Source: Alphaproteobacteria bacterium | GTDB taxonomy: Bacteria; Pseudomonadota; Alphaproteobacteria; Thalassobaculales; Thalassobaculaceae | Reading direction: 5' to 3' | Length of the DNA stretch: 64,000 nucleotides | Assembly (NCBI GenBank): GCA_024742275.1 | Contig: JANSYS010000018.1 | Span: 1 to 64,000, forward strand | Shown: piece by piece, positions 8,827-48,024 of the stretch | Position numbering within the stretch: position 1 is the stretch's first letter | Layout: each line of letters opens with the position of its first letter | Notes under the pieces: model-generated | Databases searched by the model: none | What the model saw: the letters and a program-made list of their open reading frames with translations, nothing else | What the model was told of the DNA's origin: nothing | Made by a program: the position numbers and the translations under genes

Positions 8827-11800
8827 TTCGCCTCCAGTTCCGCGGCGATTTCCGAGATGCGATCCAGGTGGTCGCGTGCGAGCCGATCGATCGTGGTCTT
8901 GTCGTGGAGCGCGCTGGAGTAGTGCCACTCGAAGCGCAGACGTCCGTCGGCGATCTCGCCATCGATTTCGATCATGCATCGGCGCGGCAGGTCCGGCGCC
9001 CGTGTGCGCCCGACGGGCCCAGGGGCGATCATGAAAAGAGCACCCTCCGGCGTGACCAGATCGGTACGGCCGAGGAAGTTGAACAGCACGTCGCCTCCCG
9101 TATCCGGCGAGTCGAGGAGGCCGTGTCCGAAACCGTCGTCCGGTACCGATGCAAGCTGGTCGAGGGTCGCGCGCCGGGCGGAGGCGTGGTCGCTCTTGGG
9201 CAACCGGAGGACCACCGGATGGATCGTGGTGAACCACCCCACGGTCCGGTGGGTCGGCTGGCCGACCAAATCGTCGTTCCGGCCATGGCGTTCGCGATCG
9301 ATGCGGATGAGGGTGTCGCCGCACCAAGCCGCCAGGGTTTCCGCGAGGCAGGCCGTCAGGACGGCGTCCAGCCCGCTCCCGAAGGCGCTTGGCGCGCGGC
9401 GGGACAAGATGTCTGTTGCCGGCGCCGCCAACTCGACGGAGAGCGTCCCGACGTCGCGCTCCCGGTTCGCCGCGCCGGAACGATCGCAGGGCAGCGGTGA
9501 GGCGTCGGCCGTGGCCTGATCGCGCCAAAACTCGCTCGATAGCCGGTCGACCGGAAGCCGCCGGATTGCCGAGGCCCACGCGGTGAAGGATCCCGCTGCT
9601 CCGGACCAGGAGACCGTTTCCGAGTCCCCCAACGCCCGATAGGCGGTTTCGAGATCGGCCATGACGATCCGCCAGGAGGCGGCGTCGATCGCCAGATGAT
9701 GGACCACGGCGAGCAGAAGATCCGGGGCCGGGGCGCCGCGCCGGATCAATGCGAGGCGGGCGTGCCGCCCGTTTGCCGGATCGAGGCCGGCATGCAGGGC
9801 CTCCCAGGCGCCGGCCTCGATGCCGGCATGTGCCGGTTCGGGAACCCTGGACAGATCGTAGAGAAGCGGCGGCTCGTTAACGGGGGGACCGGGATGCTGG
9901 AGCCATCCGTCCGTGCCCTGCTGGAACCGCAACCGGAGTGCTTCGTGGCGGGCTATGACGGCGGCGAAGGCGCTCTCGAGGCGGGCGAGATCGAGCGGTT
10001 CCCGGCAAATCACCCGCAGCGTCTGATTGTAGCGGTCCGGGATGCCGCCGGCGCGGCCGATCAGCCAGTCCTGGATCGGCGTGACCGGCACCGGATCCAT
10101 CGGCGCTGTTGCATGGAGGCTGGGGCTGTCCGGTTTCACTGGCGAGATCCGGGGCGCTACCTCGACAAGGCCGGCAATCGTTGGATGTTTCAGCAGCAAT
10201 CTGGGGCTCGCGTCGAGACCGACCTGGCGCATGCGGGTCGCGGCCCGCAGGGCGACGAGGGAGTCGCCCCCGAGCCGGAAGAAATCGTCGTCGATACCGA
10301 CACGATCCAGTTTCAAGAGATCGGCCCAGATCCGCGCGACGGCGGATTCCGTCGCATCGCGGGGCGGGCGCGAAGGGGCTGTGTCTATCGTCGCGTCGGG
10401 CTCCGGCAAGGCGGGGCGGTCGAGCTTGCCTGTCGCGCCGCGCGGCAACCCGTTGAGGATGACCCAAGTATGCGGCCGCATCCATTCGGGCAATCCGGCG
10501 CAAATCCTCTCGCGTTCTATCTCCGCGACGGGATGCCCGTCGCGGGGAACGATATAGGCGGTCAGACGGTCGTTCCGGAGTGCCACGGCCGCCTCGCGTA
10601 CCGCCGGATCGACCTGTAGGTGTGCCTCGATCTCCTCCAGTTCGACCCGGAAACCGCGCAGCTTCACCTGATTGTCGGATCGGCCTTGATACAGAATGTG
10701 TCCGTCCGCGGTCAGCGTTCCGCGATCCCCGACCAGGAAGAGGCGGCTGCCGTCGGCGGCGAAGGGGTCAGGGACGAAGCGGGCGGCGGTCTCTGCTGGC
10801 TGGCCTCGATAGCCCCGGGCGAGTCCGTAACCCCCGACGCAGATCGCGCCGGGCACACCCGGCGGTACCGGGCGAAGCCAACGGTCCACTACCCTGACGA
10901 TCGCGCCAGGAATGGCGCTTCCGATGGTCACGTCGTCACTTGATCCGGTGTCGAGACGGGCCGCCGTACACCAGACGGTCGCTTCGGTCGGGCCGTACTC
11001 GTTCTCCAGACGGGTCCGGGGAAGGTGGGTGCGGTGCCGGTCGACCAGGGGTGCCGGGCAGGCTTCGCCGGCGACGATGACGACCGCAAGGCAGTCCAGG
11101 TCGCCCGGAGCGGCGGCGTCCAGCACCGCATCGTAGAGACCGGGCAGCATCAGGGTGTGGGTGATCGAACGCTCTCGGATCAGGCGGGCGAGTGCCCCCG
11201 CGTCGGTGGCTTCTGCATCCGTAGGCAGGTGAACGGTACCGCCGGTTGCCAGGGTCCAGTAGAGACCGGCGACAGAGCTGTCGAAACCGAGTGGCGATAC
11301 CACGAGAAACCGGTCCGGGTTGGCGCCGTAATGCAGGGATCGGGCCGCTGTCGACGCGGCCAAAGCCGCATGGCTGACATCGATGCCTTTCGGCGTTCCG
11401 GTGGATCCGCTGGTGAACAACAGATAGGCGAGATCGCCGGGACCGATGGCAGGAGGTGCAGCGCCGCCCTCCTCGGGCATCTCGACGACCGTTGCGGCTG
11501 GCTTGGCGACCGCGAGCATCGCGTCGATCCGGGACTGCGGCAGTGCCGGATCGCAGGGCAGATACGGTCTTCCCGATCGCCAGGCACCGAGCATGGTGGC
11601 GATCGCATCCGGGCCACGCGAAAGCCGGATTGCGACGGGCCGATCGGCGTCGTTCCCTGCCCCAGGAACGGTGTTGGCGACCTCGCCGGCGCGTGTCCAG
11701 AGCGCACCGTAGGTAAGGATCCGTTCCTCTTGCATGATCGCCGGATGGTCGGGACGAGTCCGGGCCTGCCGGGCAACGGCATCGGGCAATGCCTCAGGCG

Positions 11801-13052
11801 TCGGCAAATCCGCACCGCTACCCAGAGAAAGAAGCATCGCCATGGCCTGTGCATCCAGCCAGTCGAGTTCATGCGCCGGTCGGTCCGGCTCGGCGGCCGC
11901 AGCATCGGCGAGGGTCGTCACCATGCCGGCGAGAAGCTTCGCCTGCGCCATTTCGACCAGAAGTGGGTCGACCAGAACCGTCAGGCGTCGGGACATCGGG
12001 TCGATCCGCAGGATCAGCGGCGGCGCGCCGGGCTCCGGATCCAACCATTCGACAACGCCGGCCACCGCGTCGGACATCAGATGGACTCCGACCGAGATCG
12101 TCGGGGCTCTGGCATCGCCGATACCGGCTTCCATAAGGTGCTGCCAGTCGACTGCTTCCGAGATCGACGGCTCGGCGGCGGCACGCCAGGCCTCAAATGG
12201 GGTGTCCAGATCGTGCCGTGACACGATCGGCAGCCAACGGGCCAGTGGGCCGATTGCACCAGACAGGTCTTCGAGATCGCGACCGTCGGTGCGCCAGGCG
12301 ACTGCCACCGGATCGCTGTCGGCGCAGCGCGTCGCGAAGATCTGCGCCAAAGCGACTGTCTCGGCCGGTGTCGGGCCGCCGTCGCTCCAAGCGGTGGGCC
12401 ATGGCGCTTCGATGCTCTGCCAGATTTCCCCGCAACGCCCCGGCAACCCCAAGGCCGCGGAGAGACTCGACGCCGACTCCATAGCGGCGCGCCAATGGGC
12501 GAGGCCGGGTGCCGCATCGGGATCGTCAGCCAGCGAGGCCGACCATTCCGCGATGTCGGGATACTGCAGCGGTGCATCATCTTTTGCCGGGCCGAGGATC
12601 CGGTCAGCCAGCAGGAGCAGGCTGTCGCCATCCACGGCATGGGCCGCGCCGGCGATTTGGAGCCAAGAGTCTTCCGGGCCGATCAGGAGTCGGACGGCGA
12701 CAGGCGGCGCGGCGGTCGGATCCGCGAGACGCATCGACGGGTCGGAACGGTCAGGCGCCTTCGGCGCCGTGTCCACACGCTCGATCGAGAGGCTGGCATC
12801 GAGGGGTGTGTCGAGCACCATCTGGAGAGGGAGCCGCGACCAGGCGGGCGCGACGCAGACCGTGCGGAGGATTTCCAGATCGTCGATGCAGGCCGCCCAG
12901 CGGCGCTCCACCTCAGCCGGATCCGGCGGCGTGTCGAGCCTTAGGGTCACCGACAGTTTCGGAACCGCATCGGTCCGGTCGGAGAACAACCGGGCCTGTT
13001 GCGGGGAAAGCCGGAACCCGGCCTCTTCCGGGTTCGCGCCCGCTTCACCCAT
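8823..13052 (-). CDS. NRPS: inactive condensation-like (interface) domain-A-T-E, His-like specificity
   Basis: This protein has 1409 residues. The N-terminal condensation-like domain (about 10-400) has AAHAVDG at 136-142 in place of HHxxxDG, so it should not condense. The adenylation domain (about 430-900) has LFTSGSTGTPKG and code residues D-S-A-M-I-A-E-V-W-K, closest among codes I remember to histidine (DSELTAEVCK; six of ten match). The thiolation domain has LGGDSL with Ser931. The C-terminal epimerisation domain (about 985-1405) has HHLAIDAASW at 1118 and RTVGWFT. A dead condensation-like domain before an A domain, beside a TauD-type hydroxylase gene, matches the siderophore interface domains that recruit beta-hydroxylases. 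The likely product is a D-configured, beta-hydroxylated residue. The start overlaps the oxygenase stop by eight bases. Confidence 0.9.
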   Translation of the reverse strand: MGEAGANPEEAGFRLSPQQARLFSDRTDAVPKLSVTLRLDTPPDPAEVERRWAACIDDLEILRTVCVAPAWSRLPLQMVLDTPLDASLSIERVDTAPKAPDRSDPSMRLADPTAAPPVAVRLLIGPEDSWLQIAGAAHAVDGDSLLLLADRILGPAKDDAPLQYPDIAEWSASLADDPDAAPGLAHWRAAMESASSLSAALGLPGRCGEIWQSIEAPWPTAWSDGGPTPAETVALAQIFATRCADSDPVAVAWRTDGRDLEDLSGAIGPLARWLPIVSRHDLDTPFEAWRAAAEPSISEAVDWQHLMEAGIGDARAPTISVGVHLMSDAVAGVVEWLDPEPGAPPLILRIDPMSRRLTVLVDPLLVEMAQAKLLAGMVTTLADAAAAEPDRPAHELDWLDAQAMAMLLSLGSGADLPTPEALPDAVARQARTRPDHPAIMQEERILTYGALWTRAGEVANTVPGAGNDADRPVAIRLSRGPDAIATMLGAWRSGRPYLPCDPALPQSRIDAMLAVAKPAATVVEMPEEGGAAPPAIGPGDLAYLLFTSGSTGTPKGIDVSHAALAASTAARSLHYGANPDRFLVVSPLGFDSSVAGLYWTLATGGTVHLPTDAEATDAGALARLIRERSITHTLMLPGLYDAVLDAAAPGDLDCLAVVIVAGEACPAPLVDRHRTHLPRTRLENEYGPTEATVWCTAARLDTGSSDDVTIGSAIPGAIVRVVDRWLRPVPPGVPGAICVGGYGLARGYRGQPAETAARFVPDPFAADGSRLFLVGDRGTLTADGHILYQGRSDNQVKLRGFRVELEEIEAHLQVDPAVREAAVALRNDRLTAYIVPRDGHPVAEIERERICAGLPEWMRPHTWVILNGLPRGATGKLDRPALPEPDATIDTAPSRPPRDATESAVARIWADLLKLDRVGIDDDFFRLGGDSLVALRAATRMRQVGLDASPRLLLKHPTIAGLVEVAPRISPVKPDSPSLHATAPMDPVPVTPIQDWLIGRAGGIPDRYNQTLRVICREPLDLARLESAFAAVIARHEALRLRFQQGTDGWLQHPGPPVNEPPLLYDLSRVPEPAHAGIEAGAWEALHAGLDPANGRHARLALIRRGAPAPDLLLAVVHHLAIDAASWRIVMADLETAYRALGDSETVSWSGAAGSFTAWASAIRRLPVDRLSSEFWRDQATADASPLPCDRSGAANRERDVGTLSVELAAPATDILSRRAPSAFGSGLDAVLTACLAETLAAWCGDTLIRIDRERHGRNDDLVGQPTHRTVGWFTTIHPVVLRLPKSDHASARRATLDQLASVPDDGFGHGLLDSPDTGGDVLFNFLGRTDLVTPEGALFMIAPGPVGRTRAPDLPRRCMIEIDGEIADGRLRFEWHYSSALHDKTTIDRLARDHLDRISEIAAELEAK

Positions 13053-14061
13053 GGTAGGGCTCTGCCATTGCGACGAGAATGCGCCGGTGGCCGGAGTAGG
13101 GCTGCCGTCCGTGGGCTACCGACATGTTGTCGACCAGGAGGATATCGCCGTTCTGCCATGCGAAGCGGCGCTCCTCTGCATGGTAGGCGTCCAGAATCTC
13201 CCGAACGGTTTCGGTCGCTATCTCGGTGCCGTCTCCAAAGGCGGTCGCATATGGCATTCGCTCGGTTCCGAGTTCGGCTTCCAGAGCGTCGCGGTCCGGT
13301 CCGGCATAGCTGCTGACATGGAAGAACGCGGCGTGGTTGAACCAGACCGGCTCGCCCGACACAGGGTGCCGCCTGATTGCGGGCCTCGTCTGGCGGGTCG
13401 CGAGCCGGTCGTCCGCACCCCAGGCGAAGGCGATATCGTTGTCCTTGCAGAAGCTCTCGACGGCGGCTCTGTCGTCGGTCTGAAACACCTCCTGCCAAGG
13501 CAGACCGAATCCGTCGTTGAAGCGGCGGACCAACGTGAAGCCGCGGCGCTCGAAATCCTCGACCGTCTGCTGGGACAGCCTGCCGAGAACCCCGGCGATA
13601 TTGGCCAACGGCGTTTCGCCGCCGCTTTCCGCCGCCGTTTCGCAGGCGAAATACAGCTTCATCGGCCACGCGCGCCAATAGGTACCTTCGTTGTGCAACT
13701 CGATCCGGCGGTCCGCGGGGTAGGAGGTCGAGGTATAGAGCTTGTTCCCCAGGGACTCGCGCGGGGTCGTCCGATCCCGGTAGTCGAGCAGCGTGTTGTC
13801 GCTCGTCGCCGCCACGAAATCGGCGAGCTGTTCCGCCGACTGGCGATCGAAACCTCGGAACAGCAAGGCCTTGTGGCGCTCGAGGAGATCCTGGGCGAGG
13901 GGTTTCGCCATGGCGGCCCATCCGACGAGGTCCAGGCCGGAGACCTTCGGCGTCACGATTGCCGGCCACCATCCGCCATCGGCCATCGGACGGCAGTCGA
14001 TCAGATCCTCCGCTTCGGTGCTCACGGCCCTGCGTTTGACCGCTCCCGGAGTGATTTTCAT
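13045..14061 (-). CDS. SyrP/TauD-type Fe(II)/2-oxoglutarate-dependent hydroxylase
   Basis: This 338-residue TauD-superfamily oxygenase has iron ligands visible as H123-N-E125 (HNEGTYW) and distal H317 (VAHGRQP), with a following Arg for 2-oxoglutarate (GHRR). HxE rather than HxD is normal in the SyrP and AsnO type enzymes that hydroxylate the beta-carbon of an amino acid, often while it is carrier-bound. The ATG at 14061 overlaps the PKS stop (ATGA); an ORF start further upstream is a shadow inside the PKS. Its stop lies inside the start of the NRPS with the inactive N-terminal domain, so the two are probably translated together and act on the same residue. A free amino acid substrate remains possible. 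Confidence 0.9.
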   Translation of the reverse strand: MKITPGAVKRRAVSTEAEDLIDCRPMADGGWWPAIVTPKVSGLDLVGWAAMAKPLAQDLLERHKALLFRGFDRQSAEQLADFVAATSDNTLLDYRDRTTPRESLGNKLYTSTSYPADRRIELHNEGTYWRAWPMKLYFACETAAESGGETPLANIAGVLGRLSQQTVEDFERRGFTLVRRFNDGFGLPWQEVFQTDDRAAVESFCKDNDIAFAWGADDRLATRQTRPAIRRHPVSGEPVWFNHAAFFHVSSYAGPDRDALEAELGTERMPYATAFGDGTEIATETVREILDAYHAEERRFAWQNGDILLVDNMSVAHGRQPYSGHRRILVAMAEPYHG

Positions 14062-17000
14062 GGCTCGGTCCCCTCTGTCCCGGTCCGCGCGCGCTTCGGC
14101 CGTCGGGCGGCGGCGAGCCGATCGCGCTGTCTGCCCTGGAACCGTTCGGCTCGTGCGGTCTCCCGTCTCATTCTGATCTCGGCACACGTCGCCGTCATCT
14201 CCGACATGCGGGTCTCTGGGTCGTTGACGCTGAGGGCCAGCACGGCCTCGAATGCCTCCGCCAGTGTCGACACCGTTTCAGGCCGGTAAGCGCGGCGCGC
14301 GAACTCGAGATGTCCGATAAGGCCGTCGCCGTCCGGCTCCAGCACCAGGGCGAGCGGAAATCGCGCCGGACGATTCTCTGGATGAATCACTTCGAGCGCC
14401 AGTGCATCGTCAAGTCGGCGCGGCGCGCTGTGGGTCAGCACAGTGAACCACACATGAAACGGCGGCGGCTCTGCAGGTCCCCGTCCGAGAGCCTCTAGAA
14501 CGTTCTCGAAAGGCGTTTCTCCATGGCCGTGGGCCTCGACCACCGTGCGCGCCGTCGCGTCGACCAGGGCCGCGAAACCGGTATCGTCCGGTACGGTGGT
14601 CCGGAGCACCGCTGGATTGACGAAGTAGCCGACAACCGTCTCCGCTGCCGGTTCCGTTCGTCCAGCCAGCGGGGTTCCGATCGTCAGATCCCGCGCGCCG
14701 CCGAGGCCATGGATTGCCGCCTCGAAGGCGGCGAGCAGCCAGACGAACGGTGTCGTTCCGCGTGTGGCGGCAGTGCTGCGGATCGCCGCGACCGTGTCCA
14801 GCGGAATCGTGAGGGTCACGGCTTCACCGTCGTAGTCGCCATCGGATCCGCCGGGGGCGTCGTATGCAAGCGGCGGCGACGACGGCAAATCGGCAAGTCT
14901 GCTACGCCAATAGGCGATGTCCTGGGCACGGTCCGGCCGTTCGGCTCGCGCCGCGCAGATATCGGCGAATTGGAGCGATGGAACGGAGGTGGGCGGCCTG
15001 CCTTTCAGGAAATCGCGGTAGAGCGTTCCGATATCCTCGAGCAGCAGTCCGATGGACCAGTCGTCGACAACGATGTGATGAACGGCGAGCAGGAGCGTAT
15101 GTCGGTTCGATCCGGTCCCCATGAGCTTCGCCCGCCATATAGGCCCTGCTTCCAGATCGAATGGCCGGCTGAAGAAGCTCTGCATGCGGGCGGCTTCATC
15201 CTCCACCGTATCCGCGACCTCGAGCGGTGGACCCGATCCCGGCGCGTCGACAATTTGCCGCGGCTGCCCGCCGACGGCGATTAACCGGGTGCGCAATGCC
15301 TCGTGCCGGTCGGACAATGCGGCAAGGGCGGCGGAGAGCGCGTCGCGGTCTAGGGCTCCTGTCAGCCTGTAGGCGGCGGTGACCGCGAAGTTTGATCTGT
15401 CCGTCGACATCTGCTCGGCGATCCAGATCCGCCGTTGCCCGGCAAGGACCGGCAACGCGGAGGATCGGTCCGCAATGCCGATGTCGGTGGGGGCTGCCTC
15501 GGCCCCTCGGCTCACCGTCTTCCGGAGCCCGGCAAGGGTCGGCGCGGCCAGGAAATCGGCCAGGCTGATCTCCACGCCGACCGAGCGGCGGACGCGGGAG
15601 AGCAGTTGCAGGGCCAGAAGGGACGATCCGCCGAGTTCGAAGAAGTTTTCGTTCGTCCCGGCGTCGTCCAGACCGAGCACCTCGTCCCAAAGGCGCTCCA
15701 GGGACGGCGGGGTCTGCCCAGGGACGGTATCCGCTCTAGCGATGGCGCCTTGCGCTTTCGACCGGGTCGCGGCGGCGCGCCATTTTTCCAAGCGGGGCGC
15801 GAACGGCGTCGCGGAGATCAGGATCTCCCCGCGCAGCCCGTCGAGGACGGCGGTCAATAGGCGGCTGAATGCCCGAAGCGCATCGTCGCGACTCAGGTCT
15901 TGGTCATCCGGAGGCCCGTCTGTCTTGGCAACCGCGTCCAAGGCGACGCTCAGCCATGGATGGCCGCGCCGAACTTGATCGGCGGCGATGGCATCAAGCA
16001 CCGCGTTGGCCCCGGCATAGGCGCCGTAGCCGATCCCGCCGAGCCAGGTAGAGATCGACGATACGAGAAGGCAGAAATCGAGATCGACCCCAGCCAACCC
16101 CTCGACGAGCGCCTTTGTCCCGTCGATTTTTGCGGCGGCGTGGACGGCGGCAGTACGTTTCAGATCGCCGGAAAGCGGCCCGAAGCCTGACGGATCGAGC
16201 GTGCCGGCGGCATGGATGACGCAGGCGATTCGCCCATGCCGCTCCATGATCAGTCGCAGCGCCGCCGCGAGCGAACCGCTGTCGCCGACGTCGCCGGTCA
16301 GGTGATGGATGCGTCCGCCGCCCTCGCCCTGCGGTCCGCCTGATCGAGACAGGAGGTAGATGTCGACCGGTGCGTCGGCGGTATGCAGGTCGACGGCGTC
16401 GGCGAAGAGGCGGCCAACGCGGCCGTGGCCCCCGGTAATCAGAACAGGTCCGTCGATACGCGGCGAGCGGCCTCCGCAAGCTGCCAGTGTCTCCACCGAT
16501 GGCAGCCAGCGTCTCCCCGTCCGGTAGGCGACAATGGGATCGCGGTCGACGGTTGCGAGGTCGTCGGCGAGAATCTCGGTCGCCGTTCTGGGGTCGTCAC
16601 AGTCAGCCAGAAGACAGGTCGTCGCCGGGTTCTCGAGCGGCAAGCAACGAAGGGCGCCGATGGCCGGTGCCGCCTCGGCTGCAAGCGTTTCGGTCCCGGT
16701 CACGTCGAACAACCCGGTTGCCAGCCATGCGACCGTCAACGGAGTATCCGATTGGATCTCGTCCAGTCTCCTGGCGATCGCCGCGATCATTCCGGCGGTG
16801 CCGGTATCCGAGGCGGTCAGAACGAGCCCGCGGACATCCGGCTCGATCCGTGTCGGTAAATCGTCGCGCGGCACAGGCAGGGCGACGGCGCCCCGTCGCT
16901 CGATTGCAGCGGTGATGGCCGATGCGAGATCCCCGCCGGCGTCCTCGACCAACCAGGTCCCTTCGAGCCGGTCGTGTTTGGAGCGGATGCCACCGACCCG

Positions 17001-19637
17001 CCGCCAGGATGGCACAAGCAGTTCCGGCAGCTCGGGTTCAGGCTGGGCCGATGGTGCCGGGTCGAGCCAATGTCGGGTCGGCGCAAAGGGATACGGCGGC
17101 AGATCTGCTACCATGGCCGTGCCGGGCGGGTCGAGCGGCGTCCAGTCGATATCCGCGCCGGCGACCCACACCTCACCCAGCGTTTCCAGGAGCACGTCGA
17201 CGTCTTCGCGTCGGTCTAGCGGATGACGCATCAACGCCATCGTGACGGTTCCCTCGGTCATCGACGGATTCTGGCGGGCGAGTGTGGACAGAACTCGCCC
17301 CGGGCCGGATTCGATCAGGATCGGATCGGGATAACGCAGCGCGGCGCCGATGCCTTCGGCAAACCGCACCGGAGCCCGAAGCTGTCGGCACCAATAGTCG
17401 GGGTCCGTGGCCTCGGTATCGGTAAGAAGCGCGCCGGTGAGGTTGGACAGGATCGGAACCTGAGGCGGCAGCAAGTCGATCCCGGCGACGGCCTCGCGGA
17501 ACGCATCCAGCATCGGCTCCATCATGGCCGAATGAAAAGCGTGCGAGGTCGAAAGGGGATGACACTCGATCCCGGCGGCCCGGAGCGCGGCTTCGGCACG
17601 GTCGACGGCTTCGACAGGTCCCGAGACGACAGTGCTCTCCGGCGCGTTGAGCGCCGCCACGTCTACGGCTTCTGCGAGATGGAGCGAGACGGTGTCCTGA
17701 TCGGCGGCGGCCGCGAGCATCCGGCCGCGGGGCAACGCCTGCATGAGAGCGCCGCGGCGGGCGACCAGCCGGAGACCGTCGGCAAATCCAAAGACTCCCG
17801 CGACACAGGCCGCAGCATATTCGCCGAGACTGTGACCGATCAGGATATCGGGCGCGATGCCGAAGTGGTGCAGGAGGCGAGCGCAGGCCACATCGGTCGC
17901 GAAGACGAGCGGCTGCGTCAGCGCGGTTTGTGCCAAGTCGTCGTCATCGCCCTCGAACAGGATGGATCGAAGATCGCGGCCGAGCAGCGGAAGAAGTTCG
18001 GCGGCGGCATCGTCGATGGTCTCGCGGTAGACCGCGAACGCGTCGTAAAGACCGCGGCCCATGGCCGGGTACTGCGCACCCTGTCCGGGCATCAAAAGGA
18101 TCCGGATCGGCGTCCCTGCCGTCAACATTCGCCGTTTCAACGGTGCGGCGCCGGAGAACGGGGCTTCCTCCCCCGCAGCGGTTTGGAAGGCACGGGCCGG
18201 CAGATCGATCTCGGTTCGCCGCAGGGTGTATGCCACGTCGTCGAGCTCCTGCTCGGTCCGTGGGACGATCCCCTTCAGGCTCTCCATACGGCGATCCAGG
18301 GCCGTGGTGTCGGCGGCCGCGGCCAGGAAGAGACGCCGGCCCTTTCTGCGTGCGGGATGCGGCCGGGACGGCGGCCCCTCGATGACGACGTGGGCATTGC
18401 TGCCGCCGACGCCGAACGAGCTGATACCGGCCAGTCCGGATGGTGCCAACGGCAGCGATGCGCGGCTTACGGTGAAGCCTCTCTCGGTCAGCCTCAGAGC
18501 CGGGTTTGGGGCGTCGAAGTTGATCTGGGGCGGCAGGACTCCGTTCCGGAGCGCGAGCGCCGCTTTGATGAGGCCGGCAGCGCCTGCAACCGTATCCGTA
18601 TGGCCGATATTCGCCTTGACCGACCCGATCGGGCATGCCGCGGTGCGACCTGATCCCGAGAATACCGCGCCGAGAGCGCCGATCTCGACGGCGTCGCCAA
18701 GCGCGGTCCCTGTGCCATGAGCCTCGATGAAGGACAGATCGCCTAGATCGACCCCGGCTACCGCCATGGCTTCAGCGACGACGCCGATCTGTCCGGCCTC
18801 GCTCGGTGCGGTGAAGCCGAGCTTGTCGGCCCCATCGTTGTTGACCGCCGCTCCCCTGATCACAGCATGGATCCGGTCCCCGTCGGCAAGCGCGTCCTCG
18901 AGGCGACGCAGAGCCAGCACCGCCGCACCGTCGCTGAACACGGTACCCGCGGCGCGGTCGTCGAACGGGCGGCAATGCCCGTCCGGCGCTTCGATGCCGT
19001 CCGGCTCGTACAGATATCCGGATCGGCGGGGCAGGCGGAGCGAGCAGGCGCCCGCGAGGGCGAGGTCGCTCTCGCCGAGCATCAGGTTCTGGCAGGCAAG
19101 GTGAATGCCGACCAACGCGGTAGAGCAGGCAGTCTGAACCGTAACGGCCGCTCCCTTCAGGCCGAGCTTGTAGGCGATACGCGTGGCGGCGAAGTCCTTG
19201 TCGTTGGCAACGTAGGACAGAAACTGACGGCCCGGATCGCCGGCCGCATGCTCAATGTCGCGCCAGAAATGTGCGTTTGCGCCTGTGCCGGCATAGACGC
19301 TGACCGGACCCGGAAGACGCGCCGGAGAGTATCCGGCGTCCGCGAGCGCGTGATACGCGGTTTCCAGCAGGAGTCTTTGCTGCGGGTCGATCCGTTGCGC
19401 CTCTGCCGGCGTGACGTTGAAGAACGCCGCATCGAATTTGTCGGCGTCGGCGAGGAAACCGGCGACGGGCACGTATGCAGGATCGTCAAGAATGCGCCTG
19501 GGCACGCCGTCTGCGGCCATCTCGTCGCGCCCAAATCGGGTAAGGCACTCTTCGCCAGCCAAAAGGCGATGCCAGAACGTTCGGAAATCGGGGCATCCCG
19601 GCAAGCGGCAAGCCATGCCGACGATCGCGACCTCCAT
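14058..19637 (-). CDS. Modular type I PKS fused to NRPS condensation domain: KS-AT-KR-ACP-C
   Basis: This protein has 1859 residues. Ketosynthase (1-420): TACSTAL with Cys171, HGTGTALGD, NIGHTD. Acyltransferase (about 505-830): GHSLGE with Ser603 and an HAFHS motif near 697-701, which indicates malonyl-CoA. Ketoreductase (about 1060-1300): TGGHGRVG, LVSSIS and YGAYAGAN, so it should be active and leave a beta-hydroxyl. ACP: GGSSL with Ser1339. Terminal condensation domain (about 1385-1800): HHIVVDD at 1520, catalytic His kept. The trailing C domain supplies the condensation that the next NRPS cannot perform itself. ATG 19637 has GGAG six bases upstream. It is first in the reverse operon. Its AT is the only intact one in the window. 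Confidence 0.94.
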   Translation of the reverse strand: MEVAIVGMACRLPGCPDFRTFWHRLLAGEECLTRFGRDEMAADGVPRRILDDPAYVPVAGFLADADKFDAAFFNVTPAEAQRIDPQQRLLLETAYHALADAGYSPARLPGPVSVYAGTGANAHFWRDIEHAAGDPGRQFLSYVANDKDFAATRIAYKLGLKGAAVTVQTACSTALVGIHLACQNLMLGESDLALAGACSLRLPRRSGYLYEPDGIEAPDGHCRPFDDRAAGTVFSDGAAVLALRRLEDALADGDRIHAVIRGAAVNNDGADKLGFTAPSEAGQIGVVAEAMAVAGVDLGDLSFIEAHGTGTALGDAVEIGALGAVFSGSGRTAACPIGSVKANIGHTDTVAGAAGLIKAALALRNGVLPPQINFDAPNPALRLTERGFTVSRASLPLAPSGLAGISSFGVGGSNAHVVIEGPPSRPHPARRKGRRLFLAAAADTTALDRRMESLKGIVPRTEQELDDVAYTLRRTEIDLPARAFQTAAGEEAPFSGAAPLKRRMLTAGTPIRILLMPGQGAQYPAMGRGLYDAFAVYRETIDDAAAELLPLLGRDLRSILFEGDDDDLAQTALTQPLVFATDVACARLLHHFGIAPDILIGHSLGEYAAACVAGVFGFADGLRLVARRGALMQALPRGRMLAAAADQDTVSLHLAEAVDVAALNAPESTVVSGPVEAVDRAEAALRAAGIECHPLSTSHAFHSAMMEPMLDAFREAVAGIDLLPPQVPILSNLTGALLTDTEATDPDYWCRQLRAPVRFAEGIGAALRYPDPILIESGPGRVLSTLARQNPSMTEGTVTMALMRHPLDRREDVDVLLETLGEVWVAGADIDWTPLDPPGTAMVADLPPYPFAPTRHWLDPAPSAQPEPELPELLVPSWRRVGGIRSKHDRLEGTWLVEDAGGDLASAITAAIERRGAVALPVPRDDLPTRIEPDVRGLVLTASDTGTAGMIAAIARRLDEIQSDTPLTVAWLATGLFDVTGTETLAAEAAPAIGALRCLPLENPATTCLLADCDDPRTATEILADDLATVDRDPIVAYRTGRRWLPSVETLAACGGRSPRIDGPVLITGGHGRVGRLFADAVDLHTADAPVDIYLLSRSGGPQGEGGGRIHHLTGDVGDSGSLAAALRLIMERHGRIACVIHAAGTLDPSGFGPLSGDLKRTAAVHAAAKIDGTKALVEGLAGVDLDFCLLVSSISTWLGGIGYGAYAGANAVLDAIAADQVRRGHPWLSVALDAVAKTDGPPDDQDLSRDDALRAFSRLLTAVLDGLRGEILISATPFAPRLEKWRAAATRSKAQGAIARADTVPGQTPPSLERLWDEVLGLDDAGTNENFFELGGSSLLALQLLSRVRRSVGVEISLADFLAAPTLAGLRKTVSRGAEAAPTDIGIADRSSALPVLAGQRRIWIAEQMSTDRSNFAVTAAYRLTGALDRDALSAALAALSDRHEALRTRLIAVGGQPRQIVDAPGSGPPLEVADTVEDEAARMQSFFSRPFDLEAGPIWRAKLMGTGSNRHTLLLAVHHIVVDDWSIGLLLEDIGTLYRDFLKGRPPTSVPSLQFADICAARAERPDRAQDIAYWRSRLADLPSSPPLAYDAPGGSDGDYDGEAVTLTIPLDTVAAIRSTAATRGTTPFVWLLAAFEAAIHGLGGARDLTIGTPLAGRTEPAAETVVGYFVNPAVLRTTVPDDTGFAALVDATARTVVEAHGHGETPFENVLEALGRGPAEPPPFHVWFTVLTHSAPRRLDDALALEVIHPENRPARFPLALVLEPDGDGLIGHLEFARRAYRPETVSTLAEAFEAVLALSVNDPETRMSEMTATCAEIRMRRETARAERFQGRQRDRLAAARRPKRARTGTEGTEP

Positions 19638-19859: not shown

Positions 19860-22800
19860 ATGCTCGGACTCGTATTGGCAACGAACGTGCCCTACACCCG
19901 ATTTCACGGCGGCGCCAATCGCTCGAATAAGGCGCTTGCCGAAGCGCTGGCGGCGCGTGGGCATCGCGTAACGGTCATCACCCCCGCGTTGTCCAGCCCG
20001 CCGCAGGAGACACTGGAGGAGTGGCGGAGCGCGCGTCTGACCGAGGGAGCGAGTCTCAAACCGACGTCGGACGGCTATCGCTTCGAGTTGAACGGTGTAT
20101 CGGTGCTGGCCGTCGCCGATCAGGGCCGCATGCTGCCCGCCTTTGCCGAGGCGGTGGTGCGGGAACGTCCCGACTGGGTTTTGGTTTCAAGCGAGGATCC
20201 CAGCCAGGCGTTGCTGTCGGCCGCTTTGGACGCCGCGCCCGGTCGGGTGGCCTATCTTGCGCTGACGCCGCAACTCTTCCCGTTCGGGCCGGAGAGCCTT
20301 TATCCGGGTGAAGCGAGGACCGAAATGGTGCGCCGTTGTCGGCTCCGGCTCGTACTCAGCAAGGCCGCTGCCGACTATGTCGAGCGATGGTCCGGCGTGA
20401 CGGCAGAGATCTACGCTCCACCGCATTTCGGCAGCGGGCCGTTTCCCGTCCTCGGCGATCCGTCGGGCGCTGCTCTGCTGATCAATGCCAGTCAGATCAA
20501 GGGGTTGCCCATCTTCCTGGAGTTGGCGCGCCGTTTCCCAGGGCGGCGATTCTGGGCACTGCCGGGTTACGCCACTACAGCGGCCGATCGCGCGGCCATC
20601 GCAGCGCTGCCGAATATGGAGATGCGCCCGAACAGGCCGTCGCTCGACGACGTTCTGAGCGGGGTTAGCGTGGTTCTGATGCCGAGCCTTTGGTTCGAGA
20701 GTTTCGGAATGGCCGCCGTCGACAGCATGCTGCGAGGGATTCCGGTGCTGGCAAGTGACCATGGCGCGCTCCCGGAGGCGCTGCTCGGGACCCGGTCGCC
20801 GCTACCGGTCCGGCCGATCGAGGGCTATCGGGACAGTCTGGAGGACAATCTGCTCCTTCAGCCGGTCGTGCCCGAGCAGGACATCGGTCCTTGGCGCGAT
20901 GCACTTGCGGCGCTTTGGGATAGCCCCGATGAATACCCGGTCATCTCGCAGTCGGTTCGCCGCGCGGCTCAGGCATTCGCGGATGCTGGGTCGGTGGCCT
21001 CGGTCGAGCGTCTCCTGGAAGAGGGTTCGGCGACGGCCGCTCCCTTGGCCGGGTCCCTCCGACCGTCTAAGCCCGAGACCTCCGCGGGTGCCACCCTGTC
21101 GCCGTCCCAGAAGTCCGAGATGCTGCGGCGGGTCAGGGAGCGCAGGAGCGGTGCGGCCCGGTTGGTGAAAAGCGGCATTCCCGCCGTCTCGCGAGATGGC
21201 CTTCTGCCTTTGTCGCCTGGCCAACGACGCCTCTATTTTCTGCAGCGTCTTGAGCCGGATGCGGGTGCCTACAACACGGCGTTCCTGCTTCGTCTGCGCG
21301 GGAACTTGGACCAGTCCGCTCTGGCCCGGGCGCTTGATGCTCTCGCGGAGCGCCACGAGGCGCTGCGGAGCGTGATCGTCGAACGGGACGGTGCCCCGAG
21401 CCAGCGTATCCTTCCGGAGGCCTCGCTCTCCCTCGAGACCGTCGATGCGGCCGACGACGAGTCCGCGCTGAGAGCGCTGCGCGATCGCGCCGCCCGACCG
21501 TTCGACCTCACGGCTGCAGCTCCCGCCAGAGTCCATCTGGCCAGCCTATCGGATACCGATCACCTGCTGCTGTTTGTGATCCATCACATTGCCACCGATG
21601 CCTGGTCCACTGGGATCCTGGTCGACGACCTCGCCGCGCTCTATTCCGGTTTCGTCGAAGGACATCCGGCCGACTTGCCGCCGCCCGGAGCGGCGTTCGT
21701 CGACTACGCGGCTTGGCTGGAAGCCGCCGCCGAAACGGGAAGGGGACACGAGGATTATTGGGTCGAACGCCTTTCCGACGCGCCGACGGCGATAAACCTG
21801 CCGAGCGATCGGCCGCGCCCGGCGGTCAGGCGTCAGCTCGGCGACAGTCTGCCGATTTCCTTCGACGGCGAGCTGATCGACGGCGCTGGCCGGATCGCCC
21901 GCGACCAGGGGGCGACGCTCTTCATGGCGATGCTCACCGCCTGGTTGGTCGTTTTGCACCGTCTCGGCGGCGACGACGACCTCGTCATCGGTATCCCGGT
22001 CGCCAATCGCGGTCGCGCCGAGATCGAGCGAACCGTCGGTTTTTTCGTGAACACGCTGCCGCTGCGGCTGGACGTGTCGGGGAACCCGACGTTTCGCGAC
22101 CTGCTGGCCCACGTGCGAGACCTTTTCATAACCGGGCTCGAGCATGCCGAGGTGCCGTTCGAGCGGATCGTCGAGCGCTTGAACGTGCCGCGGTCGCGGA
22201 GCCATGGGCCTCTCGTCCAGACTCTGTTCGGCCTGCACAACGCCGGCGGGGAAATTCCGACGCTCGCAGGCGTGGAGGCCGAGCCCGTGGCCGTCCACAA
22301 CGGAACCGCGAAATTCGACCTGAACGTCGAGCTTGCCGAGACGGAAGGAACCGTCGAGGGCTCGGTCGAGTTCGACACCGAGTTGTTCGACCCTCAAACC
22401 ATCGAGCGTATGGTCGATGTTTGGCGCACGGTGCTGGCGGCGTTCGTTGCCGATCCCGAGGCCAGGATCGGAGCGGTCCCGTTGCTGTCGCCCGCGCGGA
22501 CTGAGGCCCTTCACCGCGGCCTGAACCCGCCGGCGACGCCCTTGGCGCCGTCCGACTCGATTGCCGCGCGTCTGCGTGCGGCGGCGGCCCGGACACCGCA
22601 AGCGGAGGCCCTGCGGATCGGGTCGGCAACCATGACCTACGGCGAGTTGGACCGCTGGACGGACCGCTTGGCCGCCGGGTTGGTCGGCCGCGGCGTCGGT
22701 CCCGACGTGTCCGTGGCGTTCGCCACCGAACGCGGGTTCGAACGCATCGCCGCGATGATCGCGATCTTGAAGGCGGGGGGAGCCTGCGTACCGCTCGATC

Positions 22801-25800
22801 TGGCGCTCCCCGCGGACCGGCTCCGCCATATCGTCGCCAATTCGCAGGCGCCGTTCATCCTGACCCAGGCGACGACCCGCGCCCGGGTGGCGCCGCTTGG
22901 CGGGCCGCTGGTGGAAATCAACGATCTCGAAGCCGGTGCGTCGTCGCCCCTGCCGGAGACGATCCCGCACGATGCGATCGCATACATTCTATATACCTCC
23001 GGTTCGACCGGAGAGCCGAAGGGCGTGGCGTATCCCCAGGGCGCCGAACTGAACCTCATGCTCTGGTTCAACGACCGCTTCTCGGAGCCGGCCCGGTCGA
23101 TGCAGTTCGCCTCCATCGGCTTCGACGCGAGTTTCAACGAGAGCCTGTCGACCCTGATGGTGGGCGGCACGCTCAATCTGCTGACCGACGCCGAACGCGC
23201 CGACATTCTGGCGGCGGTCGATGCCTACCTCGACCAGAACATCGAGCGGGCGATCGTTTCGGTCGTGTTGCTCAATCTGCTGGCCGAACGTGTTCTCGCG
23301 CGGCCGCCGGAGCGGCTTTCGCTGAGGGAGATCATCGCGACCGGAGAACAGCTCAAGATCACGCCATCGGTCGAACGCATGCTCGCGGCGTATCCCGATA
23401 TTCGTCTTTTCAACGACTACGGTCCGACCGAAAGCAACGTGATCACCGCGCTGGATGTGACCGGGAGGGCCGACCACTACGGCGCGTTGCCGCCGATCGG
23501 TCGTCCGGTGCGGTCCGCCCGGTGCTATGTCCTCGACCGCTACCTTCATCCGGTTCCCGCGGGGATGCCCGGCGAACTCTACCTCGCCGGTAGCGCGCTA
23601 GCCCGAGGCTATAGCGGCAGACCGGCATTCACCGCGTCCGCTTTTCTGCCTGATCCGTTCGCGTCGGCCGCCGGGGAGCGGATGTACCGGAGCGGCGACA
23701 TCGCCCGGTTACGGGATGACGGCGAACTTGAATTGATAGGCCGTGCGGACGATCAGTTGAAGATCCGGGGCTTTCGGGTCGAACCGGCTGAGGTCGAGAT
23801 CGCGCTGCGGGCGCAGCCGTCGGTGGGCGACTGTCTGGTTATAGCCCGGACGTTTCCGGGCGATGACCGGCGGCTCGTGGCCTATGTGGTTGCCGGCGCC
23901 GGACCCGCACCGGACCCGTCGGTGCTCCGGTCGGCCTTGGCCGACCGCCTTCCGGACTACATGGTGCCGGCGCACATCGTCGTCATTGGCGCGTTCGAAC
24001 TGAACGCCAACGGGAAAATCGACCGCGCCCGGTTGCCGATGCCGGAGACGGAGCGCGAACTGGGCGAGGGCTTGGCTGCGCCAAGAACCGAGATTGAGGA
24101 GACGTTGCTGCGCCTGTGGCAGGACGTGCTCGACGTGCGCGCGATCGACATACGCGACGATTTCTTTTCGCTCGGTGGGCACTCGCTGCTGATCATCCGG
24201 ATCATCGCCAGACTGCGCGAGGAGCTTGGAGTTGAGCTACCGCTTGCCGCCTTTCTCGATGGGCCGACGATTGAACAACTCGCGGTCACGGTTACGGCGC
24301 TCTTGGCGGAGGGCGAGGAGGAGGATCTCGAACGGCTCCTTTCCGAGATAGAGGGCGCCGAGATCGAGGGCGCCGATATCGAGGGCGCCGATATCGAGGG
24401 TGCCGATATCGAGGAGTCGGACTCAGGGAGCGGGGAGACTCCGACGCTTGAACCGGAAGCCCTACGGCGCAGCCTGCTGAGCCACGCGGCTGACGCCGAA
24501 CCAGGGACGGAGATCGCGGCGATTGGGGTTCCGTCCAGCAACCGTCCGGACATACTGGCGGGCTGCCTGACCTCTTATCTCGACAACTGTGCGGCGTATG
24601 GCCGCCGGCCGGAGATCGTCGTGTGCGGCAGACAGCGCGATCGGCAGACGGATGCGGCCTATCGGCGGGTGCTCGGCGACATCGCTACGCGGTACGAGAC
24701 CGCCGTGTCCTACGCGGGAGCGCCGGAAGCCGACCGATTTGCCCAGCGCCTTGCCGATGTCGCGGGCGTGGATCCGGCGGTGGTCCGCTTCGCTCTGTCC
24801 GACAGTGAAGGCGTCGGCCTGCCCTACGGCGTGAACCGCAACGCGCTGCTGCTGCACAATGCGGGCCGTGCTTTCGTCAGCGTCGACGATGATACGCGCG
24901 GCGTTTTTCGACGCTACGGCCCGGCGGAACCGGGCTTGATCGTCACGTCGGAACCAGGCGTCTCCGAGATCCGCGTGTTGGGATCACGCGAAGACGCCTT
25001 GGCCGAGGTTGAACCGGAGGCGATCGACTGGCTCGGTCGCCACGGCGAGGCCCTCGGGGCGGATGCGGCGGCGTTGCTCGCCATCGACCCGGATCGCCCT
25101 CTCGATACGCACCAAGCGGCTCGTGGGTCATTTGGTCGTCTGAGTTGTGGCGAGGGCCGGGTCGCACTGACCTACCAGGGATGGGTTGGGGATTCCGGCT
25201 GGGCGGGTTCCGAGGAGGCGCGTTGGCTGACCGGTGCGTCTTTCGACTGGATCACCGAGACCGCCGAGCGCTATGCGGCGGCGCTTGCCAGCCGCGAGGT
25301 CGTGCGAGGGGTGAGGGGGCTGACCTTGAGCCGAGGCGGCGATTTCTTCTGCCTGTCGGCGGGGTTCGACGCCCGGAGGCCACTCGTGCCGTTTCTGCCG
25401 GTCCAGCGTCGGGAGGATGCGCTGTTCGGCTGGCTTGCCACCTTGGTCGACGAGTCCGCGCTGGTCGCCCACCTTCCGGGAATGGTTCAGCACGATCGCG
25501 CGGGCGGCGGGCTGCCGGCGCTGCTCGATGCGGTCGACCTCGCGGCTTTGATCAGGGCCGCTCTGTCGGACGAGACCGGGCTGTCGGGACCGCCGGAGGC
25601 GCGGCTGGAAAATCTGGGCGCAAGGCTCGTGGCGGCTTGCGCCGCACCGCCGGATCGTTTTGACGCCTGGATCCGAGAGCGTGCGCTGACCGATATGGAG
25701 CGGGATCTGGAGTCCGTCGAGGCGCGGATCTCCACCTGTCCGTCAGAACGGGACTATTGGGCCCGCGATGCCGAACTCGCGGTGCAGTTTGCGCGCCGAA

Positions 25801-26002
25801 AATTGCAGGAGGCGGACAGTCATTTGCCGCGATCCTTGGGGCTGCGGCTCGATCGGGAGGCGCGCGTGCAAAGGCTGCGCCTCGTGCTTTCCCGCTACGG
25901 CGCGTTGATGGAAGCGTGGCCGACTCTGATGGCGTCGGCGGCGGCGCTGCGGTCGTCCGGCGACGGTCTGGCGCCTGCGCTCGTCGCCGAACCGGTGGCG
26001 CA

Positions 26003-26006
<4 letters not shown>
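19860..26006 (+). CDS. Glycosyltransferase-NRPS(C-A-T)-glycosyltransferase-like fusion protein
   Basis: This protein has 2048 residues. Residues 1-410 are a GT-B glycosyltransferase of the GT4 type (N-terminal HGGANRSNKALAEAL, C-terminal SLWFESFGMAAVDSMLRG). A condensation domain (about 445-885) has HHIATDA at 575. An adenylation domain (about 897-1395) has LYTSGSTGEPKG and code residues read as D-A-N-I-I-T-D-V-I-K, which I cannot assign. A thiolation domain has LGGHSL with Ser1442. After an acidic IEGAD repeat linker (1497-1516), residues about 1545-2045 resemble a GT-A/GT2 fold: a PSSNRPDILAGCLTSY opening, YGVNRNALLLHNAG and DDD at 1676-1678. ATG 19860 follows AAGGGG and starts the first glycosyltransferase strand exactly; longer readings are rejected. 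The next NRPS starts within its stop (GTGA). Transferases fused at both ends of an NRPS module are rare in my knowledge. Confidence 0.9.
24348..24407 (+). repeat. Four tandem 15-base repeats encoding an IEGAD/E linker
   Basis: Four in-frame 15-base units (24348, 24363, 24378, 24393) encode IEGAE, IEGAD, IEGAD, IEGAD and are followed by IEE. Units differ by only one or two bases, so the array is recent and may vary in copy number between strains. It lies between the thiolation domain and the C-terminal transferase-like domain of the fusion protein, and extends an already acidic stretch (EGEEEDLERLLSEIEGAE). It is probably a flexible or helical spacer between the carrier and the last domain. 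Confidence 0.93.
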
Positions 26007-33244
<7,238 letters not shown>

Positions 33245-34441: not shown

Positions 34442-34999
34442 CTACTGCCGCTTACCTGCGCCCTGCTGCAGGGCCTCGGCCAGTTCCGGCGACATGGCCA
34501 GATCGACCTCTGTCTTGCCGGGACGCAGAAACTCGATCAGCAGCACCACCCGACGGGTGATGTCGTCGTTCCAAGCCTCATGCTCGATCATATCGTTGAA
34601 AGCCATGAACCTGCCGGGTGTCCAGTGGTAGGTTTCCCGACCGACGCGAATCCCGCACTTCTCCGGTACGATCAATGCCAGATGTCCGACATAGAGGGCA
34701 TGCGAATAACCGATGTGGGGTTCGATGCGGGCACCTGGTTGGAGTACCGAGAACCCAGCGCTGCGCAAGCCCGGTATGGAATCCAGGAGACGTGTTGTCT
34801 TCGGGCACCGCGCGCAGTTGTCGTCGAACCGCTCTCCGAGCAGATAGAAGCCGAACGCATCCCATCCTTGGCCGTACAGATGGCGTTCCGGCCATGGGAT
34901 GAGCTCGCGCGACTCCAGATCCTCCATCTCCTGGAGAATATCGCGCCATCCGGATTCAAGACGGGCCGTGAACTCGAACTGGCTGGTATCGATGAACAT
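34442..34999 (-). CDS. Aspartyl/asparaginyl beta-hydroxylase (AspH) family oxygenase
   Basis: This 185-residue Fe(II)/2-oxoglutarate oxygenase is of the AspH fold. The family motif EPHIGYSHALYVGHLALIVP gives His95, and FNDMIEHEAWN gives His140. AspH-type enzymes coordinate iron with two His and lack the usual acid. A later R-x-VLLIEF strand carries the 2-oxoglutarate Arg. The start at 34999 is chosen because GGGAGG lies at 35009-35014; an earlier ATG at 35020 adds MVGRKTA but lies upstream of that site. In this cluster it is a second, unrelated candidate for beta-hydroxylation or another C-H oxidation. Substrate unknown. Confidence 0.88.
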   Translation of the reverse strand: MFIDTSQFEFTARLESGWRDILQEMEDLESRELIPWPERHLYGQGWDAFGFYLLGERFDDNCARCPKTTRLLDSIPGLRSAGFSVLQPGARIEPHIGYSHALYVGHLALIVPEKCGIRVGRETYHWTPGRFMAFNDMIEHEAWNDDITRRVVLLIEFLRPGKTEVDLAMSPELAEALQQGAGKRQ

Positions 35000-35044
35000 C
35001 GCCGTTTTCCTCCCGACCATCGGCCATCTTTCTACCCGTGATTA

Positions 35045-35776
35045 TCATGGCAGCGTGTCGAATGACCACGATCTAAGGTCTATCGGCCCCAACGATCCAG
35101 CAGCACACGCGATCGCCGCGATCCAGCCGGGCCGAGGTTGGATCAGGCCAAATCGCCAGTCCGACGGGTCTCCCGTCGCCGTGGAGACGAGGCGCGGCGG
35201 GTCGGTCGTGATATCCACCGAGAAACTGTCGAGGGGATGCGACAGTCCTTCGCCCAGCGCCTTCACGAACGCCTCCTTGAGAACCCAGCAGCGGTAGAAC
35301 CGGTCGAGTGCATGCGCGTCGCCGGGATCGCCGATCGCGGCCAATTCATGCGGAGTGAAGAACCGGGCCGCGACGGCGGCGAAATCGTCGATCCGGCGGA
35401 CCCGTTCGATGTCGACGGCAAACCGCTCAACGGGTCCGAGGCCAATGAGGGCGAGGTCGTCGGAGTGGGAGCTTGAGAAGATCGGGGGCCCGCTTTCGGC
35501 GGTCAGCAAAAAGGGGCGGCCGAATGCCGGATCCGCGATGAACCGCAGTTGCTCCGGCGGGACGCCCGTCGCGCTCCCGAGGATTTGACGAAGGGCCGCG
35601 CGCCGGACGACAAAGCGATCTCGATCTCGCGGGAAGCGGTACCGTTCGGCTCTCTCGATTTCGTCGACGCTCAGCAGAGACTTGATTTGTTTTACAACTA
35701 TCGGTGATATATCAAGAGGTACGGTCCAGAGCGAGACGGGGGCGGGCCCAGAGTCTCTGGCAATGTTCGCCATCAT
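35045..35776 (-). CDS. Sfp-type 4'-phosphopantetheinyl transferase
   Basis: This 243-residue enzyme transfers the phosphopantetheine arm from CoA to carrier-domain serines. Visible motifs are FAVDIE (Mg2+ ligands Asp and Glu) and WVLKEAFVKALGEGL (the WxxKEAxxKaxG signature), with FPRDRDRFVVRRAALR near the N-terminus. It is expected to activate the carrier domains of the PKS and NRPS proteins in the cluster. Two ATG codons in a row (35776 and 35773) share a GGAA site; the first is used here. It leads the reverse operon with the AspH-type hydroxylase and enolase-type enzyme. Confidence 0.93.
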   Translation of the reverse strand: MMANIARDSGPAPVSLWTVPLDISPIVVKQIKSLLSVDEIERAERYRFPRDRDRFVVRRAALRQILGSATGVPPEQLRFIADPAFGRPFLLTAESGPPIFSSSHSDDLALIGLGPVERFAVDIERVRRIDDFAAVAARFFTPHELAAIGDPGDAHALDRFYRCWVLKEAFVKALGEGLSHPLDSFSVDITTDPPRLVSTATGDPSDWRFGLIQPRPGWIAAIACAAGSLGPIDLRSWSFDTLP

Positions 35777-36674: not shown

Positions 36675-36807
36675 CGGTCGGGATTCACACTGAGCCGAGT
36701 GCGGGGACCGGTCGGTCTGACCTGGGTGTGGCAGGTTTCGCGGCTTTCGGAGCCGGAGAAAGATTGCGATCGTGGCGGCGACCCGTGTCGGCAAACCCGG
36801 AGATCCG

Positions 36808-47233: not shown

Positions 47234-48024
47234 GGTCTCCGTCCAACCGACGGTGCGCCGCCCCGATCGGGGGATGGCTCCTGCCGCCGCGCCGCGAAGA
47301 AACCATCCGTTTCCGTCTGTTCTGCTGGCCCTATGCCGGGCTCGGCGCTTCCCTGTTCGTGAATTGGAGCCGGCACGCCCCGACGGGGGTCGGGATCTAC
47401 GGCATTCAACCGCCGGGGCGGGAAAGCAGAATGTCGGAGCCGCCGCTTCGGCGGGTGACCGACATGGTTGCCCAGTTGACGGAAGCGATGGCAACAGAAC
47501 CAAGCCTCTTCGATGCTCCGTTCGGGCTGCTTGGATGCAGTTTCGGCGGAATCGCCTCCTTCGAGTTGGCCCGAACGCTGGTCGCCGAAGGCGTGCCGTC
47601 GCCGTCGGCCTTCGTTGTTCTCGCTTGCCGGCCGCCGCATCGGGTTCATCCGGTCGGGCCGTTTAGCATCCTCGATGACGATGCGCTCACCGAGCGTCTG
47701 GATCGGGACTACGGAGGCGTTCCTGAGATCCTGCGCCAGCAGCCCGACCTTCTGCGCCTGTTTCTGCCGACGCTGCGGGCGGATCTCGAAGCGATGGAGA
47801 GTTACGTCCCGCCGAAGAACCCGGTAGCGCTCGGCTGCCCCGTTCTGGCGATCGGCGGCGCGGACGACGGCCAGGTTCCGGCATCGGTCCTCCAGGAATG
47901 GACGCGATATGGCGCTGAAGGATCGACGGCGCGGACCGTCGGTGGACGGCACTTCCTTGTACGCGACGACCCGGCGGCAGCGCTCGCGACGGTCCTCGAC
48001 GGTCTGCAGCCATGGCTGCCGTAA
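47230..48024 (+). CDS. Type II thioesterase, probably with a CTG start codon
   Basis: This alpha/beta-hydrolase is of the GrsT/RifR kind and removes wrong or stalled acyl groups from carrier domains. Motifs are FCWPYAG, GCSFGG (Ser104 by this start), GGADDG and GGRHF. The first ATG/GTG/TTG in frame is GTG 47359, but homology begins earlier, with [20 protein letters not shown], and no standard start exists between the in-frame stop at 47161 and there. CTG 47230 overlaps the MbtH stop as CTGA and is preceded by GGAGGG at 47214-47219 with ten bases spacing, so it is the likely start (264 residues, normal for the family). A sequencing error is the alternative. The stop overlaps the next gene. Confidence 0.85.

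Follow-up and report, generated by a model that had tools for sequence, protein, structure and literature searches.

The starter synthetases of mycosubtilin and iturin, MycA and ItuA, have the domain order AL-ACP-KS-ACP-AMT-C-A-T. Other lipopeptides made by nonribosomal peptide synthetases (NRPS), such as occidiofungin/burkholdine and hassallidin, carry sugars and have glycosyltransferases (GTs) that are separate proteins. To our knowledge, NRPS products of known pathways receive their sugars from free enzymes once assembly is complete, and we found no published case of an NRPS–GT fusion in the open-access library searched. A core biosynthetic enzyme and a GT domain share one polypeptide in the enfumafungin-type terpene cyclase (PMC8403587), as at the locus described here, but that protein is a fungal terpene cyclase with a single GT and no carrier-bound intermediate. 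A similar idea, the delivery of a tethered peptide to a GT, underlies the RRE-fused RiPP glycosyltransferases (PMC12710340); these, however, handle ribosomal peptides and use GT family PF00535, which the C-terminal domain considered below does not match.

The window analyzed here, a stretch of 64,000 nucleotides from a genome of the alphaproteobacterial family Thalassobaculaceae (contig JANSYS010000018.1), contains a gene (19860..26006, forward strand) that encodes, in a single open frame, a 2048-residue protein with the order GT4-C-A-T-GTA. Two GTs are thus fused to an NRPS module, in contrast to the separate GT proteins of the occidiofungin/burkholdine and hassallidin systems; iturin synthetases have no GT domains, whereas here the GTs are part of a module later than the starter. 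We interpret the protein, with slightly less than even confidence, as an NRPS extension module into which two GTs are built, belonging to a conserved cluster for a glycosylated beta-amino-fatty-acyl lipopeptide.

A sequence-only reading of this DNA had claimed an uninterrupted 2048-residue frame with a GT at both ends of a C-A-T module, and the frame itself, Pfam matches, GC content and orthologues all confirm it. The longest stop-free run in the other five frames of 19860-26006 is 480 residues, and GC content at the three codon positions is similar throughout (0.70/0.54/0.77 in the GT4 part, 0.71/0.48/0.80 in C-A-T and 0.75/0.54/0.77 in the GT-A part); this is therefore one coding gene and no chance read-through. 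The search for other proteins of this domain order, proposed in the same reading, returned full-length orthologues in the isolate Salinarimonas ramus (L008:3339-9500, 2053 aa) and, through the related-genome search, in genome G010 (L012:1486-7596, reverse strand). Because three genomes, including that of an isolate, share this order, a draft-assembly artefact was rejected. The fused orthologues align end to end at about 66–67% identity with only the linkers poorly kept. The best-kept part is the T domain (80–90%); identity is 69–71% in the GT4 domain and 61–64% in the GT-A domain (61% for this domain alone in the S. ramus species-genome scan), the linkers being least kept (39–46%), as in the acidic linker with EIEGADIEGADIEG repeats at 24300..24509 (forward strand; 39–46% identity to the orthologues).

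The gene lies in a cluster of about 45 kb that is syntenic with S. ramus, and G010 has most of the same genes on two contigs. Shared with S. ramus on the reverse strand are two NRPS neighbors, C-A-T (5638..8805) and A-T-C (8823..13052), a TauD-type oxygenase (13045..14067; 75–77% identity in the orthologues) and a KS-AT-KR-ACP-C protein (14058..19637; 57–59%), the divergent neighbor of the fused gene. On the other side, a C-A-T-C-A-T-TE synthetase (26003..33244, forward strand; 65% identical orthologue in S. ramus) begins with a GTG codon that overlaps the stop codon of the fused gene (GTGA at 26003-26006), and this overlap suggests that the two genes are translationally coupled. Beyond it, on the reverse strand, are an Asp_Arg_Hydrox gene of the aspartyl beta-hydroxylase type (34442..35020; PF05118, E 5e-41; 84% in S. 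ramus) and a phosphopantetheinyl transferase gene (35045..35776; 48% in S. ramus), preceded by a mandelate racemase/enolase-type gene (33264-34379, reverse strand) for which the S. ramus cluster has no equivalent.

The starter protein of this cluster (36772..46125, forward strand; 64% identity in the orthologues), also shared with S. ramus, has the order FAAL-ACP-KS-ACP-aminotransferase-C-A-T, equal to that of the iturin/mycosubtilin starter and likewise without a built-in AT; by analogy with iturin-type synthetases, this order makes a beta-amino fatty acyl lipopeptide the likely product. The only AT domain found is that of the KS-AT-KR-ACP-C protein at 14058-19637 (reverse strand), none being found in the starter at 36772-46125, so that malonyl loading for the starter KS may take place in trans. 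Following the starter, also on the forward strand, are a Cupin_8/JmjC-type hydroxylase (46132..46983; 80% in the orthologues), an MbtH-like protein (47012-47233) and a type II thioesterase with the motif GCSFGG (about 47240-48024), the latter two identified by eye and present also in S. ramus and G010. Next come a separate GT4 glycosyltransferase (48012..49175; 67% and 62% identical in the orthologues) and an HlyD gene with two ABC exporters, the first bearing a C39 peptidase domain (49325..55750); the Cupin_8, GT4, HlyD and exporter genes are again shared with S. ramus. From the gene content, sugars on the product would be set by up to three GTs and export would fall to the ABC, HlyD and OEP genes. 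The C39-peptidase exporter (50598-52778, forward strand) is about 84% identical in both relatives, which places it with the best-kept genes, but we saw no obvious gene for a precursor peptide. The presence of three hydroxylase types (TauD, Asp_Arg_Hydrox and Cupin_8) in one NRPS cluster, at 75–84% identity where compared, is a further feature of the locus.

The central part of the fused protein has the characteristics of an NRPS extension module, with the A core motifs and a T domain bearing the phosphopantetheine serine. The condensation domain (21204..22511, forward strand; residues 449-884 by Pfam; PF00668, E 6e-101) has the active-site motif HHIATDA in 3/3 orthologues, which agrees with HHxxxD, the usual G after the D being replaced by A. 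In the adenylation domain (22575..24017, forward strand; PF00501, PF13193, TIGR01733), Pfam places AMP-binding at 906-1251 and AMP-binding_C at 1311-1386. The specificity code had been read as D-A-N-I-I-T-D-V-I-K; nine positions stand, and the fourth is V by alignment (DANVITDVIK), with a one-residue uncertainty. The aligned codes of the orthologues are DANVMTDVVK and DANVLTDVVK, and because the codes are nearly identical across the three proteins, all three A domains probably use the same substrate. The sequence-only reading had suggested that this may be an unusual residue which accepts the sugar. The thiolation (carrier) domain (24099..24284, forward strand; residues 1414-1475; PF00550, E 1.7e-16) contains the motif LGGHSL.

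Residues 1-390 (19860..21029, forward strand) form a GT4 domain of the GT-B type, with Glyco_transf_4 at residues 17-182 and Glycos_transf_1/GT4-conflict at about 248-311. All three Pfam matches are over the cut-off: PF13439 at 38.9 bits (cut-off 28.5), PF00534 at 28.0 (26.4) and PF20706 at 38.3 (26). The motif E280-x7-D288 and K214 are kept in 3/3 orthologous fused proteins, the second Glu of the donor-binding E-x7-E motif being Asp (D288) in all of them. Among the 337 genomes sampled in the class, no further fused GT4 protein was found besides the gene at 19860-26006. The separate GT4 of the cluster is 32% identical to the fused GT4 over 106 aa, and the closest non-NRPS relative of the latter is a stand-alone enzyme of 386–394 aa in genome G209 (E 3e-63). 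The operon neighbors of that stand-alone gene (L098/L099, joined 15551-16711, reverse strand) resemble an ATP-grasp protein, a glycosyl-hydrolase-like protein and a sulfotransferase. Matches of the fused GT4 to TALE effectors in the PDB sequence search were rejected as low-complexity artefacts, with no stretch passing alone.

The opposite end of the protein belongs to an unnamed family. No Pfam or NCBIfam model matches residues ~1530-2048, and the GT2 model PF00535 matched none of six members of the family at E up to 10. An AlphaFold2 model built with 34 sequences (mean pLDDT 89.8, pTM 0.92; a model with 5 sequences, pLDDT 43.7, was discarded) predicts a GT-A fold for this domain (24510..25979, forward strand), and nearly all of the matches listed for the model by Foldseek and VIA-align are GT-A enzymes. 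Of the earlier description of the domain as GT-A/GT2-like, the GT-A fold is thus upheld by model and fold comparison, whereas membership of GT2 family PF00535 is not. The best Foldseek matches are GlfT2 and other GT2 GT-A transferases (E about 1e-5), which resemble the domain in DxD, xED and C-His but share only 12–13% identity with it, and the Pfam GT2 model finds no match here.

DxD, xED and C-His are common active-site residues of GT-A enzymes, the Asp of xED being the inverting catalytic base (PMC7185993). The DDD at 1676-1678 (24885..24893), present exactly where the sequence-only reading had put it, would provide the metal motif at the end of predicted strand 142-146, and D1676 and D1678 are found in 33/33 family rows with a residue there. 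R1850-R-E-D1853 (25407..25418), at the start of predicted helix 323-334, corresponds to the xED motif with D1853 as putative catalytic base (D1853 in 34/34 rows, E1852 in 32/34 and R1850 in 31/34), and H1878-x-R1880 (25491..25499), at the end of predicted strand 338-349, occupies the C-His metal-ligand position (H1878 in 34/34); all three motifs are on the forward strand. D1676, D1678, D1853 and H1878 are invariant wherever the residue is present in the 34-row family alignment. The modeled GT-A fold together with these invariant motifs indicates that the domain is most likely a metal-dependent, inverting NDP-sugar enzyme. GT4 Pfam matches at the N-terminus and the GT-A fold model at the C-terminus, with catalytic residues kept, agree with the claim that both ends are of glycosyltransferase type.

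Catalytic motifs are intact in the C, T and GT-A domains, and in the GT4 domain with one Glu-to-Asp change. This substitution in E-x7-E could suggest that catalysis has been lost at one end or at both, leaving the domains a docking or structural role in the megasynthase, but every catalytic position of the GT-A domain is invariant across its family, and both domains are strongly conserved relative to the linkers (69–71% for GT4 and 61–64% for GT-A against 39–46%). We consider dead end domains very improbable.

The fold comparison raises a different alternative, that the C-terminal domain is a GT75-kind NDP-sugar pyranose/furanose mutase that supplies the N-terminal GT4 with a furanosyl donor. 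Its best VIA-align matches are the GT75 proteins UAM2 (Z 21.5 over 306 residues) and MtdL (Z 19.6–20.0, the higher value over 305 residues), far above the next group at 14.9, and the match spans model residues 19-500, including the GT75-type core and the C-terminal helices. In MtdL, D111 and H287 bind Mn, R257 binds the beta-phosphate, D260 is the base and R159 acts as nucleophile and sugar carrier (PMC9937993). Judged by motif and predicted secondary structure, D111, H287, R257 and D260 all have counterparts in the C-terminal domain: with equal spacing, R1850/D1853 correspond to R257/D260 and H1878/R1880 to H287/R289, and DDD is present in both. The nucleophilic arginine, in contrast, has no invariant counterpart in the region; in the family alignment R1760 occurs in 27/34 rows, R1767 in 19/34 and R1710 in 5/34, and R1760, the best candidate column, is S in one NRPS orthologue. 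The position of MtdL D195, at or near D1778, is also variable, with D in 8/34 rows.

Profile comparison likewise speaks against a mutase. Alignment of the C-terminal-domain profile with GT75 by hhalign gave a probability of 0.3% and failed to reveal sequence homology, and the RGP model PF03214 matched nothing in the genome studied here and no member of the C-terminal-domain family. One row of the GT75 profile, and one probe, was a plant RGP sequence that served to retrieve UAM2 and MtdL; the conclusions on GT75 rest on the fold and on the UAM2 and MtdL sequences retrieved from the PDB. Moreover, DDD, xED and C-His are common to GT-A enzymes generally, UAM2 itself is reported to be inactive, and a mutase would need no carrier partner. 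The domain is therefore like GT75 (MtdL, plant UAM/RGP; PMC9937993) in fold, DDD, R-x-x-D and strand-end H-x-R, but differs in having no profile similarity and no identifiable auto-glycosylated arginine, in being about 150 residues longer, and in being fused either to NRPS carriers or to small N-terminal domains. Because no invariant R159 counterpart is identifiable, D195 is variable and neither the profile nor the RGP model matches, we describe the modeled domain as having a GT75-like fold outside the GT75 family and consider a plain transferase more probable than a mutase; the mutase explanation appears improbable.

Searches for the C-terminal domain covered Pseudomonadota genomes, one species-genome scan, plasmids and viral contigs. 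The family is sparse in profile searches of Proteobacteria. Stand-alone copies were found in one alphaproteobacterium (G336) and, by a plasmid search with L024 as query, on one cyanobacterial plasmid; plasmid searches with the C-terminal domain of the fused protein or with L071 yielded no matches, nor did the viral contigs. Copies are present in 52/197 genomes of one gammaproteobacterial family (f217). These, and one of two copies from a betaproteobacterial MAG, have an N-terminal domain of ~110 residues with weak matches only, to Lant_dehydr_N (residues 147-196) and winged-helix models, which could be peptide-binding. In both gammaproteobacterial neighborhoods examined (L037:5495-7531 and L038:6496-8463) a GT2 gene follows the family member, and these could be a peptide-glycosylating system. 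In a betaproteobacterial MAG (L009:48-3542), two tandem family members lie immediately upstream of type II secretion-like genes.

Apart from its orthologues, the C-terminal domain has its nearest relative directly behind a carrier, in an FkbH-carrier-GTA protein of 1294 aa (L086:4444-8328; G978:C171; L071) with matches to TIGR01686 (E 3e-86) and PP-binding (E 1e-17); a single such protein was seen, on a draft contig. Its gene adjoins genes of the GT2 and DUF707 types, and its loading enzyme is of glyceryl type. The tree groups the FkbH-linked with the NRPS-linked GTA domains (95/83), with long branches at that fork, which suggests that the carrier-GTA pairing was kept while the loading enzyme changed. 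We considered two independent origins of the carrier-GTA fusion and dropped them, the tree joining both types and one origin being simpler, long branches notwithstanding. It is possible, though on balance doubtful, that this unnamed GT-A family is specialized for carrier-tethered substrates (C-A-T and FkbH-ACP) and glycosylates the growing chain, with the GT4 domain adding a second sugar.

For the fused module we propose the following course. The starter protein would load a fatty acid and install the beta-amine, and the fused module would add one residue to the chain. Behind its carrier, the GT-A domain would take a sugar from an NDP-sugar and transfer it, with inversion, to the carrier-bound residue or chain at a hydroxyl or amino group; D1853 would act as base, and DDD and H1878 would bind the metal. 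TauD, Asp_Arg_Hydrox and Cupin_8 could supply hydroxyl acceptors. The N-terminal GT4 would add a further sugar or act on the incoming chain, which would then be handed to the coupled C-A-T-C-A-T-TE protein for release, with possible further decoration by the separate GT4 at 48012.

The sequence-only reading proposed that sugars are added during assembly, which is reasonable. The fusion fixed in three genomes, the FkbH relative behind a carrier and the small, perhaps peptide-binding domains fused to other family members make transfer to the tethered chain plausible, although fusion alone is no proof of action on a tethered chain, and the best fold match of the C-terminal domain, to NDP-sugar mutases and not to an external-acceptor transferase, counts against it. 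Both fused GTs might instead be real glycosyltransferases working on a peptide that is already released or almost complete; the fusion would then only co-localize and co-express them with the synthetase. Free GTs are used by the pathway, as the separate GT4 attests, and this gene is equally conserved with the cluster, so that it could account for some or all of the glycosylation. The stand-alone state of the fused GT4's closest non-NRPS relative, in G209, and an acceptor that is not readable from sequence also fit action after release. On the other hand, the C-terminal domain is tied to carriers in two different synthases that branch together, and the fusion has been kept with the cluster in all three genomes. 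We regard action after release as rather unlikely, and hold sugar transfer to the carrier-bound chain to be a nearly balanced call.

The whole cluster is available in an isolate, S. ramus, and the module is a single protein of 2048 residues. If sugar transfer does occur on the carrier-bound chain, glycosylation would become part of the NRPS template, and a carrier-tethered GT domain could in principle be moved between synthetases for glycopeptides. It would also give a function to an undescribed GT-A family that otherwise occurs alone or beside small N-terminal domains.
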